The translations under genes and the position numbers were made by a program. Positions 226 through 63,709 of a stretch of DNA of 64,000 nucleotides are shown here, piece by piece. How positions within the stretch are numbered: position 1 is the stretch's first letter; every line of letters starts with the position of its first letter. Under the pieces are notes generated by a model, which was not told where the DNA came from, ran no database searches, and saw only the letters and a list, made by a program, of their open reading frames with translations. The stretch comes from Isoptericola sp. AK164 (GTDB taxonomy: Bacteria; Actinomycetota; Actinomycetes; Actinomycetales; Cellulomonadaceae): positions 2,790,001-2,854,000 of the forward strand of contig NZ_CP119106.1 in assembly GCF_029643425.1 (NCBI RefSeq). The letters are read 5' to 3'.

Positions 226-1197
226 ATGGCCCAGTTCGACCTGCCCGTGACCGAGCTTGAGCAGTACCGTCCCACGGTCGAGGAGCCCGGCGACTTCGAC
301 GCCTTCTGGTCCGGCACGATCGCCGAGGCGCGCGGGTTCGGTGACGACGTGCGCATCGAGCGGGTGGACGCCGGGCTGACCGAGCTCACGGTCGACGACG
401 TCACCTTCCCCGGGTTCGGCGGGCACCCGATCAAGGCATGGCTCGTCCGACCGGCCCGGGTCGACGGTCCCCTGCCCGCCGTCGTGGAGTTCATCGGCTA
501 CGGCGGGGGCCGCGGGCTGCCGCACGAACAGCTCGGGTACGCCGCGGCCGGGTACGCGCACCTGGTCGTCGACACCCGCGGACAGGGTTCCGGCTGGGGC
601 TCCGGCGGCGACACCCCCGACCCGGTGGGACACGGCCCCGCCTCCCCCGGGTTCATGACCCGCGGCATCCTCGACCCGGCCGAGCACTACTACCGGCGTG
701 TCTTCACCGACGGCGTGCGGGCCGTGGACGCCGTGCGGCAGATCGACGGGATCGACCCGGCGCGAGTGGCCGTGGCCGGGACCAGCCAGGGTGGCGGCAT
801 CGCGATCGCCGTGGCAGGCCTACTGCCCGACGTCGTGGCCGCGGCGCCGAACGTGCCGTTCCTGTGCCACTTCCGGCGCGCCGTCCAGATCACCGACGCC
901 GATCCCTACGCCGAGATCACGCGGTACCTCGCGGTGCACCGGGAGCACGAGGACGCCGCCTGGCGCACGCTGTCGTACCTCGACGGGGTCTCGTTCGCGC
1001 GGCGCGCCCGGGCCGCCGGCCTGTTCTCCGTCGCGCTGATGGACACGATCTGCCCGCCGTCGACGGTGTACGCGGCGTTCAACGCGTGGGGCGGCACCGA
1101 CCGGGAGATCGACGTCTACCCGTACAACGGGCACGAGGGCGGTCAGCACTACCGGTTCGCGCCGACCCTGGCATTCCTGCGCAAGCACCTGGACTGA
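226..1197 (+). CDS. Acetylxylan esterase / cephalosporin-C deacetylase family (CE7, AXE1)
   Basis: A 323-residue alpha/beta hydrolase, the normal length for CE7 esterases, which remove acetyl groups from acetylated xylo-oligosaccharides and small esters. The nucleophile elbow GTSQGG is visible in ARVAVAGTSQGGG. The catalytic Asp is likely in MDTICPP and the His in YNGHEGG near the C-terminus. No signal peptide is seen, consistent with cytoplasmic deacetylation of imported oligomers. The start at 226 is preceded by AGGAGAG at 211-217, and an in-frame extension upstream has non-coding character. The gene sits alone on the plus strand between ispE and the ABC-F gene, which are normally adjacent, so it is probably an insertion into a conserved block. 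It fits functionally with xylA-xylB at 39-42 kb. Confidence 0.9.
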   Translation: MAQFDLPVTELEQYRPTVEEPGDFDAFWSGTIAEARGFGDDVRIERVDAGLTELTVDDVTFPGFGGHPIKAWLVRPARVDGPLPAVVEFIGYGGGRGLPHEQLGYAAAGYAHLVVDTRGQGSGWGSGGDTPDPVGHGPASPGFMTRGILDPAEHYYRRVFTDGVRAVDAVRQIDGIDPARVAVAGTSQGGGIAIAVAGLLPDVVAAAPNVPFLCHFRRAVQITDADPYAEITRYLAVHREHEDAAWRTLSYLDGVSFARRARAAGLFSVALMDTICPPSTVYAAFNAWGGTDREIDVYPYNGHEGGQHYRFAPTLAFLRKHLD

Positions 1198-1249
1198 GCA
1201 CTACCTCGCGGGGAGGTTGCCTACCTCGGCGGACGGTTGCCTACCTCGC
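1196..1249. repeat. 20-bp repeat array A (about 2.5 units), 3' of ispE
   Basis: Read on the minus strand, three copies of the core GCGAGGTAGGCAAC (or its truncated/variant form) are spaced 20 bp apart, starting about 10 nt after the ispE stop. Each unit can form a small CCNCG..CGAGG hairpin with its neighbour. The array lies between convergent ispE and the esterase gene. Same family as the arrays at 11031-11130 and 11717-11816. Confidence 0.85.
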
Positions 1250-1258
1250 GGGGCGGTG

Positions 1259-2191
1259 TCAGAGGACGCGGGCCCCCGCGGCCGGCGCCGTCGTGCACCA
1301 GACCGCGTCGGCGGCGTCCTCGGCGGTCCAGGTCGCGGCGATCGCCAGCGCGTGCTGGCGGGACCGGGCCAGCGCGGCAACGGTCGGCCCGGAACCGGAC
1401 ACCATCGCCCCGAGCGCACCGCCGTTGCGGGCGATCTCCAGGGTGCGCTCCAGCTCGGGGCGGAGCTCGAGCGCAGCCGGCTCGAGGTCGTTGTGCAGCG
1501 CCGCCCCGAGCGCAGTCGGGTCCCCGGCGCGCAGGGCCTGCATGAGGCCGTTGTCGTCGGCGACGTCGACCGGCGGGGCGGTCGTCCCGTACATCTCGTC
1601 GAACCGGCCGTACACCGCCGGGGTCGACAGCCCCTCGTCCCGCGTGGCGAACGCCCAGTGGAACTCGCCGCGGGACATCGCCGGGGTCAGCAGGTGCCCG
1701 CGGCCCGTGCCGACGGCGGTGTGCCCCAGCAGCGCGAAGGGCACGTCGGAGCCGAGCCGGGCCGCCAGCCCGGACAGCTCGGCCCGGGACAGCCCGGCCC
1801 CCCACAGCGCGTCGCACGCGACGAGGGTGGCGGCGGCGTCGGCGGACCCGCCCGCCATGCCGCCCGCGACGGGGACCCCCTTGGACAGGTGCAGGGCGAC
1901 GTCCGGCGACGTGCCGACGTGCTCGGCCAGCACCTCGGCCGCCCGCCAGGCGAGGTTCGACGCGTCCAGGGGGACCCGGTCGGCCTGCGGCCCGTCGACC
2001 GTCAGCGACAGACCCACGCCGTCGGCGACCTCGGTGGCCGTGACCTCCTCGTGCAGGGCCACCGCCTGGAACACCGTGACCAGCGGGTGGTAGCCGTCCT
2101 CCTCGACCGGACCGACCCGCAGGGACAGGTTGATCTTCCCCGGCGCTCGGACGCGGACGGACGGCGACGGGGCGGCAGCGAGACTGGTCAC
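1259..2191 (-). CDS. ispE: 4-diphosphocytidyl-2-C-methyl-D-erythritol kinase
   Basis: A 310-residue GHMP kinase that phosphorylates CDP-methylerythritol in the MEP isoprenoid pathway (cytoplasm). The N-terminal [11 protein letters not shown] substrate motif and the glycine-rich ATP loop [15 protein letters not shown] are both present, followed by the late [12 protein letters not shown] motif. The start is GTG at 2191, overlapping the rsmA stop by 4 nt (GTGA), so translation is probably coupled. Position after rsmA is the standard actinobacterial arrangement. A 20-bp repeat array begins 10 nt after its stop. Confidence 0.95.
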
Positions 2192-10466: not shown

Positions 10467-11039
10467 ATGAGTACGCGAGCACTCCTCGTCGTCGACGTCC
10501 AACCGACGTTCTGCGAGGGTGGCGAGCTCCCCGTGGAGGGGGGCCACCGCGTCGCGCAGGACGTGGCCGACTACGTCGCCGCCCACCGCGAGCGCTACGG
10601 CCTGGTCGTCACGACCCAGGACTGGCACATCGACCCGGGCGAGCACTTCAGCGACGACCCGGACTTCGTCAACTCCTGGCCGGTGCACGGCGTGGCCGAG
10701 TCCCCGAACGCCCGGCTCCACCCGGCCCTGGCCGACCTGGACGCCGACGTGGCGGTCACCAAGGGCCAGTACGACCACGGGTACTCCGGGTTCGACGGGG
10801 CCGACGCCGTCGGGCGATCGCTCGACCAGGTCTTGCGCGAGGCCGACGTCCGCGCCGTGGACGTGGTCGGCCTCGCCGAGTCGCACTGCGTGAAGTTCAC
10901 GGCGCTGGACGCCGAGCGGCACGGGTTCGAGACCCGGGTGCTGACGGACCTCACCGCCCCCGTCTCGGCGGAGCAGGGCGAGCAGGCCCACCGCGAGCTG
11001 ACCCGGGCCGGCGTCGAGCTGGCGACCTCCGCGAGGTAG
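10467..11039 (+). CDS. pncA: Isochorismatase-fold nicotinamidase-like amidohydrolase
   Basis: A 190-residue cysteine hydrolase. The catalytic triad is visible: Asp in VVDVQPTF, Lys in [13 protein letters not shown], and Cys in [12 protein letters not shown]. The metal-binding [13 protein letters not shown] typical of nicotinamidases is present. It likely deamidates nicotinamide to nicotinate in NAD salvage. ATG 10467 follows GGAGAC. It is divergent from metG. The last codons and stop (GCGAGGTAG) are the beginning of a 20-bp repeat array, so the protein ends ..SAR, exactly as rsmI does. Confidence 0.8.
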
Positions 11040-11130
11040 GCAACCCTCCGGCGAGGTAGGCAACCCCTCGGCGAGGTAGGCAAGTTCTCGGTGAGGTAGG
11101 CAACTGCCCCGCGAGGTAGGCAACTCCCCT
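11031..11130. repeat. 20-bp repeat array B (5 units), starts inside the stop codon of the nicotinamidase-like gene
   Basis: Five head-to-tail 20-bp units begin at 11031, 11051, 11071, 11091 and 11111. The core GCGAGGTAGGCAA is conserved (unit 4 has GTGAGG), followed by a variable pyrimidine-rich tail such as CCCCTCG. The TAG in unit 1 is the gene's stop codon. The junction between tail and next core (CCTCG/GCGAGG) can pair, so a transcript would fold into a row of short hairpins. Confidence 0.92.
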
Positions 11131-11210
11131 CGCGGGGCGACCGCGGACGGTCCCCGTGCAGCGGCCCGCGCCCCGCGCTACGTTGCAGGCAGGTCGACCC
11201 GGAGGTCCCG

Positions 11211-11720
11211 ATGCCGCTCCCCCCGCCCCCCGCCGGCTGGTCCCGGTACGTCCTCAAGAGCACGTTCGGCATGGGCCGCGACTTCGCCGTCCTCCACCCG
11301 GACACGGGCGACCAGTCGTGGTTCGTGGACGGCAAGGTCGGCATGCGCCCCAAGGCGGACGTCAAGGACCGGGACGGCGAGGTCGTCTACACGGTCACCG
11401 GCAAGATGTTCGGGATCCCGAAGCAGATGACGATCGCCGACGCCGACGGCACGGAGATCGCCGCGCTGCGCGCCAAGATGTTCTCCCCCGTCAAGGACCG
11501 CATGTCCATGCAGGTTCCCGGCGGTGAGCCGTGGAGTCTGGAGGGGTCGTTCATCGAGAAGGACTACGCGGTCACGGTCGGTGGACGGCACGTCGTCCAG
11601 ATCACCCAGAAGTGGGTGACCATCCGAGACGCGTACACGCTCGACGTCGCCGACGGGGTGGACGTGGGTCTGGCGCTGGCGGTCGTGTGGGCGATCGACC
11701 GCTGGGTCGAGCGCGACTGA
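11211..11720 (+). CDS. LURP-one-related / tubby-like fold protein
   Basis: A 169-residue protein with the repeated beta-strand pattern of the LURP-one-related (DUF567) family: YVLKSTFGMGRDFAVLHPD, SWFVDGKVGMRPKADVKD, VYTVTGKMFG, ITQKWVTIRDAY. The family has a tubby-C-terminal-like barrel. Its bacterial role is not established; phospholipid or membrane association is suspected. ATG 11211 is preceded by GGAGGT with ideal spacing. Its promoter must lie in or just after repeat array B. The stop codon touches the last degenerate unit of array C. Confidence 0.75.
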   Translation: MPLPPPPAGWSRYVLKSTFGMGRDFAVLHPDTGDQSWFVDGKVGMRPKADVKDRDGEVVYTVTGKMFGIPKQMTIADADGTEIAALRAKMFSPVKDRMSMQVPGGEPWSLEGSFIEKDYAVTVGGRHVVQITQKWVTIRDAYTLDVADGVDVGLALAVVWAIDRWVERD

Positions 11721-11816
11721 CGCCGGCCTACCTCACGGCAGAGTCGCCTACCTCGCCGAGGGGTTGCCTACCTCGCGGAAGAGTTGCCTACCTCGCCGAG
11801 GGGTTGCCTACCTCGC
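11717..11816. repeat. 20-bp repeat array C (4 clear units plus 1 degenerate), overlapping the rsmI stop
   Basis: Read on the minus strand from 11816 to 11717, units carry GCGAGGTAGGCAAC plus a variable tail at exact 20-bp spacing. The TAG of the first unit (11810-11808) is the rsmI stop codon. The last unit is degenerate and abuts the stop of the convergent LURP-one gene. Orientation relative to rsmI is the same as array B relative to its gene and array A relative to ispE. Confidence 0.92.
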
Positions 11817-12689
11817 GGAGGGGGCCTGGCGCGCGGCCAGCACCGCCTCGTACAGCTCGCGCTTCGACACACCCGACGCCGCCGCGACCTCCCCCGCGAC
11901 CACCTTGAGCCGCTCGCCCGCCTCGACGCGGGCGGCGACCTGCGGCACGAGCGCCTCGACGCTCGGCGCCTCCGGTGCCGGTGCCCCGCCGACGACGACG
12001 CAGATCTCGCCGCGCAGCGCCTGGCCGGTCTCTGCCCGCTCGCCCGCGAGCGCCGCCAGCTCCCCGAGCGACCCGCGCAGGACCTCCTCGTACACCTTCG
12101 TCAGCTCGCGGCAGACGGCGGCGGGCCGTTCGGGACCGAACGCCTCGGCCATGGCGGCCAGGGTGTCGACGATCCGGTGCGGCGCCTCGAAGAACACCAT
12201 GGTGCGGGGCTCGTCGGCGAGGCCACCGAGCCACCGCGACCGGTCCCCGGCCTTGCGGGGCACGAACCCGTCGAAGGTGAAGCGGTCGGTCGGCAGACCG
12301 GACAGCGCCAGCGCGGTCAGGACGGCGGAGGCGCCGGGCGCCGAGGTCACGGGCAGCCCGCGCTCGACAGCACGGGCGACGAGCCGGAACCCGGGGTCGG
12401 ACACCGCCGGCATCCCGGCGTCGGTGACGACGAGAACCGTGCCGCCGCCGTCGACGACGTCGAGCAGGTCGTCCGCCCGGTCGCGCTCGTTGTGCTCGTG
12501 GTACGACACGATCCGCCCGCCGACCTCCACGCCGAGCCGGGACGCGAGCGCGTGCAGCCGGCGGGTGTCCTCGGCCGCCACGACGTCGGCGTCGGCGAGC
12601 AGGCGCAGGAGTCGTGGAGAGGCGTCCTCGACGTTGCCGATCGGGGTGGCGGCCAGCACGACGGACCCGGCCTCGGGGACACGACTCAT
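11808..12689 (-). CDS. rsmI: 16S rRNA (cytidine1402-2'-O)-methyltransferase
   Basis: A 293-residue tetrapyrrole-methylase-fold enzyme that 2'-O-methylates C1402 in the ribosomal decoding centre. Signatures: LAATPIGNVEDAS at the N-terminus, AAEDTRRL, SYHEHNERDRADDLLD, VVTDAGMPAVSDPG and APGASAVLTALALSGL. ATG 12689 gives the canonical N-terminus. It is divergent from the O-mannosyltransferase gene, a pairing conserved from mycobacteria (Rv1003/Rv1002c) onward. The C-terminus ends ..SAR with the stop supplied by repeat array C. Confidence 0.95.
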   Translation of the reverse strand: MSRVPEAGSVVLAATPIGNVEDASPRLLRLLADADVVAAEDTRRLHALASRLGVEVGGRIVSYHEHNERDRADDLLDVVDGGGTVLVVTDAGMPAVSDPGFRLVARAVERGLPVTSAPGASAVLTALALSGLPTDRFTFDGFVPRKAGDRSRWLGGLADEPRTMVFFEAPHRIVDTLAAMAEAFGPERPAAVCRELTKVYEEVLRGSLGELAALAGERAETGQALRGEICVVVGGAPAPEAPSVEALVPQVAARVEAGERLKVVAGEVAAASGVSKRELYEAVLAARQAPSAR

Positions 12690-22692: not shown

Positions 22693-22708
22693 ATACCCCC
22701 CAGGGTAT
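22693..22708. promoter_or_regulatory. CsoR/CstR operator 1
   Basis: ATACCCCCCAGGGTAT is a 16-bp imperfect palindrome of the CsoR-family type (C/G tract flanked by ATAC..GTAT), 54 nt upstream of the dioxygenase start. It overlaps a plausible minus-strand -10 (TATGCG), so bound repressor would block transcription. Confidence 0.85.
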
Positions 22709-22715
22709 TCAAGTC

Positions 22716-22731
22716 ACACCCCCCAGGGTAT
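22716..22731. promoter_or_regulatory. CsoR/CstR operator 2
   Basis: ACACCCCCCAGGGTAT, nearly identical to operator 1 and 23 bp from it centre to centre (about two helical turns). Paired sites suit cooperative tetramer binding. Differs at one position of the outer half-site. Confidence 0.82.
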
Positions 22732-22804
22732 GCACGGAACGCCCCCGAGCACCCGGTGACATGCAGGTCAGGGCGCTGCTGCCGGGATCGCCCCCCGAAC
22801 GCAC

Positions 22805-29552: not shown

Positions 29553-29867
29553 GTGCCCACGTACGCCTACCGGTGCGCCGACTGCGGCCACGCCTTCGAC
29601 ATCCGTCAGGCGTTCACCGACGACGCGCTCACCGTCTGCCCCGAGTGCGCCGGACGGCTGCGCAAGCAGTACGGCTCCGTCGGTGTGTCGTTCAAGGGGT
29701 CCGGCTTCTACCGGAACGACTCGCGGGCGGGTTCCGGCTCGTCCAGCGGCTCCTCGTCGAGCGGCTCGTCGTCCAGCGGCTCGTCGTCCAGCGGCTCGTC
29801 GTCGAGCGGTTCGTCGTCGGGCGGCTCGAGCTCGTCGACGGGATCTTCCCAGGCCGCCTCGGCCTGA
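29553..29867 (+). CDS. FmdB-type zinc-ribbon regulatory protein
   Basis: A 104-residue protein. The first 50 residues are the FmdB zinc ribbon: PTYAYRCADCGHAFD and CPECAG give two CxxC pairs at about positions 8, 11, 29 and 32. The C-terminal half is an SSGSSSSG-type repeat, encoded by 15-bp tandem DNA repeats (about 29738-29840), and is probably an unstructured tail. Function in actinobacteria is unknown. GTG 29553 follows GAGGAG. A CIRCE element directly upstream makes it a likely member of the HrcA heat-shock regulon. Confidence 0.85.
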   Translation: MPTYAYRCADCGHAFDIRQAFTDDALTVCPECAGRLRKQYGSVGVSFKGSGFYRNDSRAGSGSSSGSSSSGSSSSGSSSSGSSSSGSSSGGSSSSTGSSQAASA

Positions 29868-63529: not shown

Positions 63530-63545
63530 GTCTTCCCTCTCCTGT

Positions 63546-63709
63546 CCGCCTACGAAGTCAGCTGTCGGGTTCGGGTGGGAGAAATCACCCGGCCCCACGG
63601 TCCGAGAACCGTGGGACTTCACCCCGAGGACACCGTCTCCGGTGCCCAGAAGTGGGTCCCCCGCCCCTGCCTGGGTCTCGGTTCACGACCGGCGGCAGGG
63701 CTCGGCGTC
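63546..63709 (-). ncRNA. c-di-AMP (ydaO-yuaA) riboswitch
   Basis: The minus-strand sequence carries the conserved blocks in order: GCAGGGGCGGGGGACCCA, then GGGGTGAAG, then CCACCCGAACCCGACAGCTG and ACTTCGTAGGCGG. These are the landmarks of the ydaO class that binds cyclic di-AMP. The closing P1 stem pairs CGCC (about 63707-63704) with GGCG (about 63550-63547). It ends 17 nt before the NlpC/P60 start, right against the SD. In actinobacteria this class controls cell-wall hydrolases and usually turns expression off when bound. Confidence 0.88.

Follow-up and report, generated by a model that had tools for sequence, protein, structure and literature searches.

Three arrays in the window and their genes

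The window analysed here is a stretch of 64,000 nucleotides, positions 2790001–2854000 of the single 3,576,703-base contig of genome G000, whose closest named relatives by rsmI belong to Isoptericola (86% in I. chiayiensis). Three tandem arrays, A, B and C, lie where an earlier sequence-only reading of this DNA had placed them, and their units recur at exactly the 20-bp step that it had described. Array A (1198–1249, minus strand) comprises three units starting at 1249, 1229 and 1209, the last of them degenerate (GCGAGGTAGTGC). It follows ispE (1259–2191, minus strand), a GHMP kinase gene, with ten bases from the TGA stop to the start of the array, and a gene of the acetyl xylan esterase family (226–1197, plus strand) is convergent to ispE. 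Array B (11031–11130, plus strand) has five units, starting at 11031, 11051, 11071, 11091 and 11111, and stands behind a nicotinamidase-like gene with an isochorismatase domain (10533–11039, plus strand). Array C (11723–11816, minus strand) also has five units, starting at 11816, 11796, 11776, 11756 and, in degenerate form, 11736; it stands behind rsmI (11808–12659, minus strand, although the start may be 12689), which encodes a tetrapyrrole methylase domain. The first TAG of array B is the stop codon of the nicotinamidase-like gene (11037–11039), the TAG of the first unit of array C is the stop of rsmI, and both proteins end S-A-R, all as had been claimed. Genes were called here and throughout with a home-made codon-usage caller in place of a standard one.

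A LURP-one-related gene (11211–11720, plus strand) lies between arrays B and C. In two further genomes, G042 and G141, the nicotinamidase-like gene is convergent to rsmI, the two being 177 and 266 bp apart and each having an arm behind it, and the LURP-one-related gene is absent from between these orthologous arms. Hence, judging from synteny, B and C probably belong together as opposite arms of a single convergent nicotinamidase/rsmI element, which in the window is interrupted by the LURP-one-related gene. Inspection by eye shows that rsmI of G000 and G042 carries extra residues past LAAR, where the protein ends in several relatives, and then reaches the first TAG; in I. cucumis (L075) and I. 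halotolerans (L072), also by eye, GAGGTAG is kept at the rsmI stop without an array.

Within the window, 28 matches were found when up to three mismatches were allowed, against a mean of 7.2 in 100 shuffles (sd 2.7, largest 13). An Rfam search of the window gave three matches, none of them at the arrays. Elsewhere in the window are a c-di-AMP riboswitch (ydaO/yuaA leader; 63532–63693, minus strand) and further tandem repeats at 22695–22746 (period 23) and 29739–29828 (period 15/45).

A shared word and its genome-specific dialects

Across the whole of G000 (3.58 Mb) the word forms 116 exact tandem pairs, 65 forward and 51 reverse; a reversed control pattern forms none. In 645 kb of this genome, much of it picked around arrays, 143 of 144 exact 12-mers (GAGGTAGGCAAC) lie 19–21 or 39–41 bp from another unit, and the same sample holds 66 arrays of at least two units outside genes, nearly all spaced at exact multiples of 20 bp. 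Fifty-six of these sit behind a same-strand gene, whose stop is the first TAG of the array in 19 cases and the TAG of the second unit in one. Several arrays are separated from the gene by a hairpin. Most arrays belong to convergent elements with inverted arms. A search of a plasmid collection for relatives returned one record, with a match to rsmI only. On the chromosome, where dnaA lies at 403, arrays are nearly absent from the terminus side (G000:C1:1344247–2440595; one locus among those listed), and the 400 kb from 1.5 to 1.9 Mb contains no units despite 19 wide convergent gaps.

The word common to genomes is CGAG(G/A)TAG, and the next three to five bases form a genome-specific 'dialect' that is conserved, unlike the variable remainder of the unit. 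The six-nucleotide tail had been described as variable, which it is, but it is pyrimidine-rich and not random. Over 202 units of G000, positions 10–11 are GC at a frequency of 1.00 and positions 12–14 are AAC at 0.83, 0.87 and 0.68; over 119 units of G141, the extension is CGC at 1.00, 0.99 and 1.00. These bases played no part in unit detection, which does itself inflate the conservation of positions 1–9. The letters after TAG are GCAAC in G000 and G042, CGC in G141 and G156, of TTC type in G103, of T(A/G) type in G072 and of A(A/G)C type in genus g8, and G103 has two dialects within one genome. A GTAG tag is contained in the word of the GGTAG genomes, its place being taken by ATAG in G132, G149, G145 and part of G103; in these GAGATAG genomes the period is mostly 22 and sometimes 21, compared with 20 in G000. 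The pattern GCGAGRTAG at period 20 occurs in 31 of 200 genomes of the family and six of 25 genera, some with a single match, and its reversed control gives zero in family genomes except G103 and G090. A triple-unit pattern occurs in three of 297 genomes of the order, all of this genus.

Orthologous gene ends were compared for the presence and the spelling of arrays. Between G000 and G042, an array is present in both genomes at nine ends, in G000 only at three (one of which, at 1210148, is a doubtful ortholog pair, while another, at 2961308, faces a variant array in G042 that is counted only by a looser search), in G042 only at five and in neither at 152. Between G000 and G141 the corresponding figures are nine, five, eight and 121. 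The nine ends shared with G141 belong to seven junctions and carry sense arrays, where 1.7 are expected (nominal p 7e-7; the two sides of one junction count twice, and the ends are not independent). By eye, each genome has its own extension at all nine, and shared loci differ in unit numbers and tails. That each species among these related soil bacteria uses its own spelling at the same gene ends suggests that a component of the cell reads the word.

Dialects of this kind recall the DNA uptake sequences (DUS) of Neisseriaceae, and the arrays might be an uptake or recombination watermark whose receptor would need several sites in register. As described in PMC3630211, DUS share a short core whose flanking letters differ between genomes but are conserved inside each, a genome sometimes has two dialects, and inverted pairs stand at gene ends; all of this has counterparts here, including the two dialects of G103. 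Frame-respecting copies inside a coding region (dnaX, below) would also suit such a system, as would the presence of ComEC (PF03772), which is weak evidence, the family being widespread. The same paper (PMC3630211), however, describes DUS as single sites scattered in their thousands and frequent within genes, whereas the arrays are clustered in tandem at a fixed period: all but one of the 144 exact words belong to registered clusters, the sampled parts of G000 have roughly 40 such loci, and a stretch of 400 kb has none. We therefore consider an uptake watermark decidedly unlikely.

Placement behind genes and the history of the tails

Gaps between genes were surveyed in sampled parts of the three genomes, the window having been picked for its arrays and the G042 and G141 samples partly via arrays or synteny; particular arrays played no part in the choice of a 360 kb tail of G000 or of the 400 kb terminus stretch. 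Among gaps of more than 40 bp, ten longer than 900 bp being left out, arrays occur in 26 of 117 convergent, 22 of 328 codirectional and 5 of 172 divergent cases; the 336 gaps of up to 40 bp are all free of arrays. One-armed codirectional arrays are sense in 12 cases and antisense in two (p 0.013). The divergent gaps with arrays, each of which was inspected, are all from G141 (5 of 67). The earlier reading had proposed that arrays follow the 3′ ends of genes in the orientation of the gene, often supplying the stop, and had suggested a scan that might contradict this. The proposal was borne out, and a scan covering part of each of the three genomes upheld the 3′ pattern, the exceptions being the two antisense arrays of 14, the five divergent gaps of 172 and one array inside a gene. 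Orientation and 3′ linkage are thus strong but not absolute.

The intragenic array lies in the linker of dnaX in G141 (G141:C1:2984962–2985117), where eight units of GA(G/A)GTAGCGC stand in frame at period 21. Each reads E-V-A with the valine codon GTA, which accounts for just 47 of 13,820 valine codons in called genes. The word is absent from dnaX of G000 and G042, and the period-21 pattern of G141 comprises seven successive pairs in dnaX and four isolated ones elsewhere. As the word has been retained here, where its TAG does not serve as a stop codon and termination would be harmful, the dnaX array favours reading at the level of DNA.

The dnaX array also bears on the possibility that the TAG is a guard for translation, in which, with a TAG every 20 bases, three units would suffice to close every reading frame. 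TAG is part of the shared word. Unselected or syntenic parts of three genomes contain 84 arms, 64 of them close to the end of a same-strand gene, and in 23 of these 64 the first TAG terminates that gene; by comparison, TAG makes up 139 of the 1024 stops in those regions. Such a guard does not explain the conserved extension and its dialects, arms of two units, or the antisense and divergent arrays, and in dnaX the word is read in frame without a stop. A three-frame stop device is largely refuted by the conservation of the extension together with dnaX, and we give it next to no chance.

A more serious alternative is that the arrays are selfish or neutral repeats of the REP/BIME type, in which a putative mobilising enzyme would spread the word, tandem duplication would grow the arms, and copies would survive at convergent 3′ ends, where they do least harm. 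The order of placement, convergent above codirectional above divergent, fits this, as does an array inside dnaX. REP, BIME and REPIN elements, which include GTAG- and CGTC-tagged repeats, are described in PMC3733652 as extragenic and numerous, lying for the most part in convergent or codirectional gaps, often near each other in opposite orientation, in lineage-specific families and with clusters that are at times reiterated in tandem. The arrays resemble them in these traits of placement and arrangement, and differ in that their unit is not a palindrome with its own stem, the conserved part being an oriented word with free tails; in their fixed period; in the ATAG of some genomes; and in the Y1 transposase, for which PF01797 had no match in G000, the only genome searched (as a control, the profile was found in five of 14 known genomes).

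The tails preserve some record of how arrays have grown. Tails of adjacent units are more alike than those of random units, so tandem duplication does happen. Identical tails are shared between loci more often than in column shuffles, 150 against 84 (sd 14) in G000 and 23 against 9 (sd 3) in G141, with no clear excess in G042; some limited copying between loci is therefore possible. Where arms face each other, the innermost tails are identical in 5 of 23 cases in G000 and 2 of 11 in G042, about 0.03 being expected in each, and in 0 of 12 in G141, a central excess that depends on degenerate inner units and disappears without them. Perfect outer facing tails are no more frequent than at random (1 of 54 in G000, 0 of 12 in G042, 1 of 25 in G141), which argues against outer arms pairing with each other. 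G149 differs: facing arms form perfect palindromes with tails that vary between loci, and by eye 10 of 12 facing pairs among those listed have identical tails. Palindromes prevail in G149, as they do in other genera, and combined with locus-specific tails they suggest either local correction of arms or selection for pairing.

Likeness of neighbouring tails, tails common to different loci and inverted arms with identical innermost tails, those of G149 included, all speak for REP-type repeats. Against such an origin, copying should bring tails along, yet outer facing tails match at the random level, and the dialect has changed at orthologous ends while the position was kept. With the missing Y1 match in G000 added to these points, REP-type repeats seem to us an unlikely source of the arrays, if one with appreciable claims.

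Hairpins and a putative reader of the arrays

Rows of small hairpins at the junctions of units had been proposed from the window, and this proposal was not supported. When pairing with the next core, real tails have no advantage in stem length over shuffled or swapped ones (3.98 bp against 3.92 and 3.99 in G000; 3.60 against 3.61 and 3.56 in G141), nor is there a palindromic body in each unit of the REP type. The 40 sense arrays tested fold with a mean z of -0.52 relative to dinucleotide shuffles (sd 1.86; -0.45 in antisense), barely an improvement and not the stable stem-loop of an intrinsic terminator.

Pairing between arms is a separate matter, and could make the arrays bidirectional RNA terminators, the two arms forming a long hairpin and the outer tandem units serving as spare stems. 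Other genera (L166, L172, L170) have compact palindromes whose arms are one or two units long, some Isoptericola loci have a central perfect hairpin, and arrays are anticorrelated with other hairpins as reported below, all of which is consistent with such terminators. A stem from paired arms is possible only where both arms exist, however, and 14 of the 26 array-bearing convergent gaps are one-armed. In G000 (p 0.86) and G042 (p 0.36) the dialect is preserved equally well in arrays with one arm and with two, whereas one-armed arrays of G141 preserve it slightly less well (p 0.02). This comparison excluded arms lying deep inside genes and arms that lack a dialect-like unit (17/23, 25/30 and 39/43 kept); with arms deep in genes included, single arms looked worse in all three genomes. 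Pairing of arms is hence not what preserves the word in G000 and G042, where single arms stay conserved without folding. Since outer facing tails also mismatch, and central tails in G141 never match, a terminator made of RNA appears rather unlikely.

The arrays are a real, oriented, dialect-bearing repeat system that resembles REP repeats, uptake sequences and intrinsic terminators each in part and departs from each in the properties tested. The explanation that we tentatively prefer, while granting it somewhat less than an even chance, is that they are rows of binding sites for a putative sequence-specific factor, most likely a DNA-binding protein, that would probably insulate the 3′ ends of genes. 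We infer the factor, its binding of DNA rather than RNA and its insulating role from the word, its spacing, orientation and position, the dialects at orthologous ends and the hairpin anticorrelation. The factor would recognise CGAG(G/A)TAG together with the extension of its own lineage. With a period of 20, 21 or 22, neighbouring sites would be separated by two turns of the helix and so share one of its faces, and an occupied array at 3′ ends, above all convergent ones, could function as a polar insulator or terminator. In the iterons of plasmid origins a protein reads direct repeats at a similar spacing of roughly two turns, and oriented sites behind genes, bound by TTF-I, form the tandem Sal-box terminators of mouse rRNA genes. 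Those systems serve origins and rRNA genes, whereas the present arrays stand behind many unrelated genes and their reader is putative. Candidate proteins were sought with three profiles, PF01797, PF00308 and PF03772.

Several observations count against a factor. A transcription insulator would seem harmful both in the five divergent gaps of G141 and within its dnaX, with eight words; one-armed arrays of G141 are slightly less well conserved; identical tails recur between loci; several arrays stand past a hairpin behind the gene; a stem of at least 12 bp accompanies the array in six of the 13 orthologous pairs described below; and the array-free 400 kb of the terminus is not predicted by binding sites. 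A wider proposal, possible but in our view doubtful, is that a putative factor with drifting preference reads two-turn arrays as a lineage-wide cis code in Cellulomonadaceae, most arrays having been rewritten to the new dialect at unmoved ends. The arrays would then belong to a coevolving system for chromosome or 3′-end organisation, neither REP nor uptake sequence, and strong enough to put eight rare-codon words into the frame of dnaX.

Word and topic searches of the literature, in which the word lists were covered in part, gave no description of the arrays among the matches listed. The gene ends of high-GC Actinobacteria are poorly understood, and if a factor does read the word, the arrays would suggest that these bacteria close their transcription units in a manner so far unrecognised. 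The orthologous dialects would then amount to a set of natural mutants of the sites and of the system that reads them in DNA or RNA, and offer a direct way to ask how hundreds of sites per genome change together.

With the proposed factor bound, an array might do the job of the strong hairpin found at other convergent ends. In convergent gaps of more than 40 bp, stems of at least 12 bp occur in 71 of 89 gaps without arrays and 7 of 26 with them (p 1e-6; two gaps dropped for length), a count made with cores masked, so that possible hairpin sequence is removed and part of the anticorrelation may be artificial. Thirteen orthologous convergent pairs have an array in just one of their two members; such a stem is present in 12 of the members without the array and in six of those with it. 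These figures suggest that an array can take the place of a hairpin, although masking lowers the count. Recurrent long inverted repeats fill array-less convergent gaps of G000, one at 2992943 and 3240056 (GTTGTGGGCATGAAATCTGCAG) and a second at 3036212 and 3307433 (GAGCGTCTCTGTTCCTCAGG); the first, GTTGTGGGCATGAAATCTGCAG, is present in the terminus stretch too, and a related word occurs in G141.
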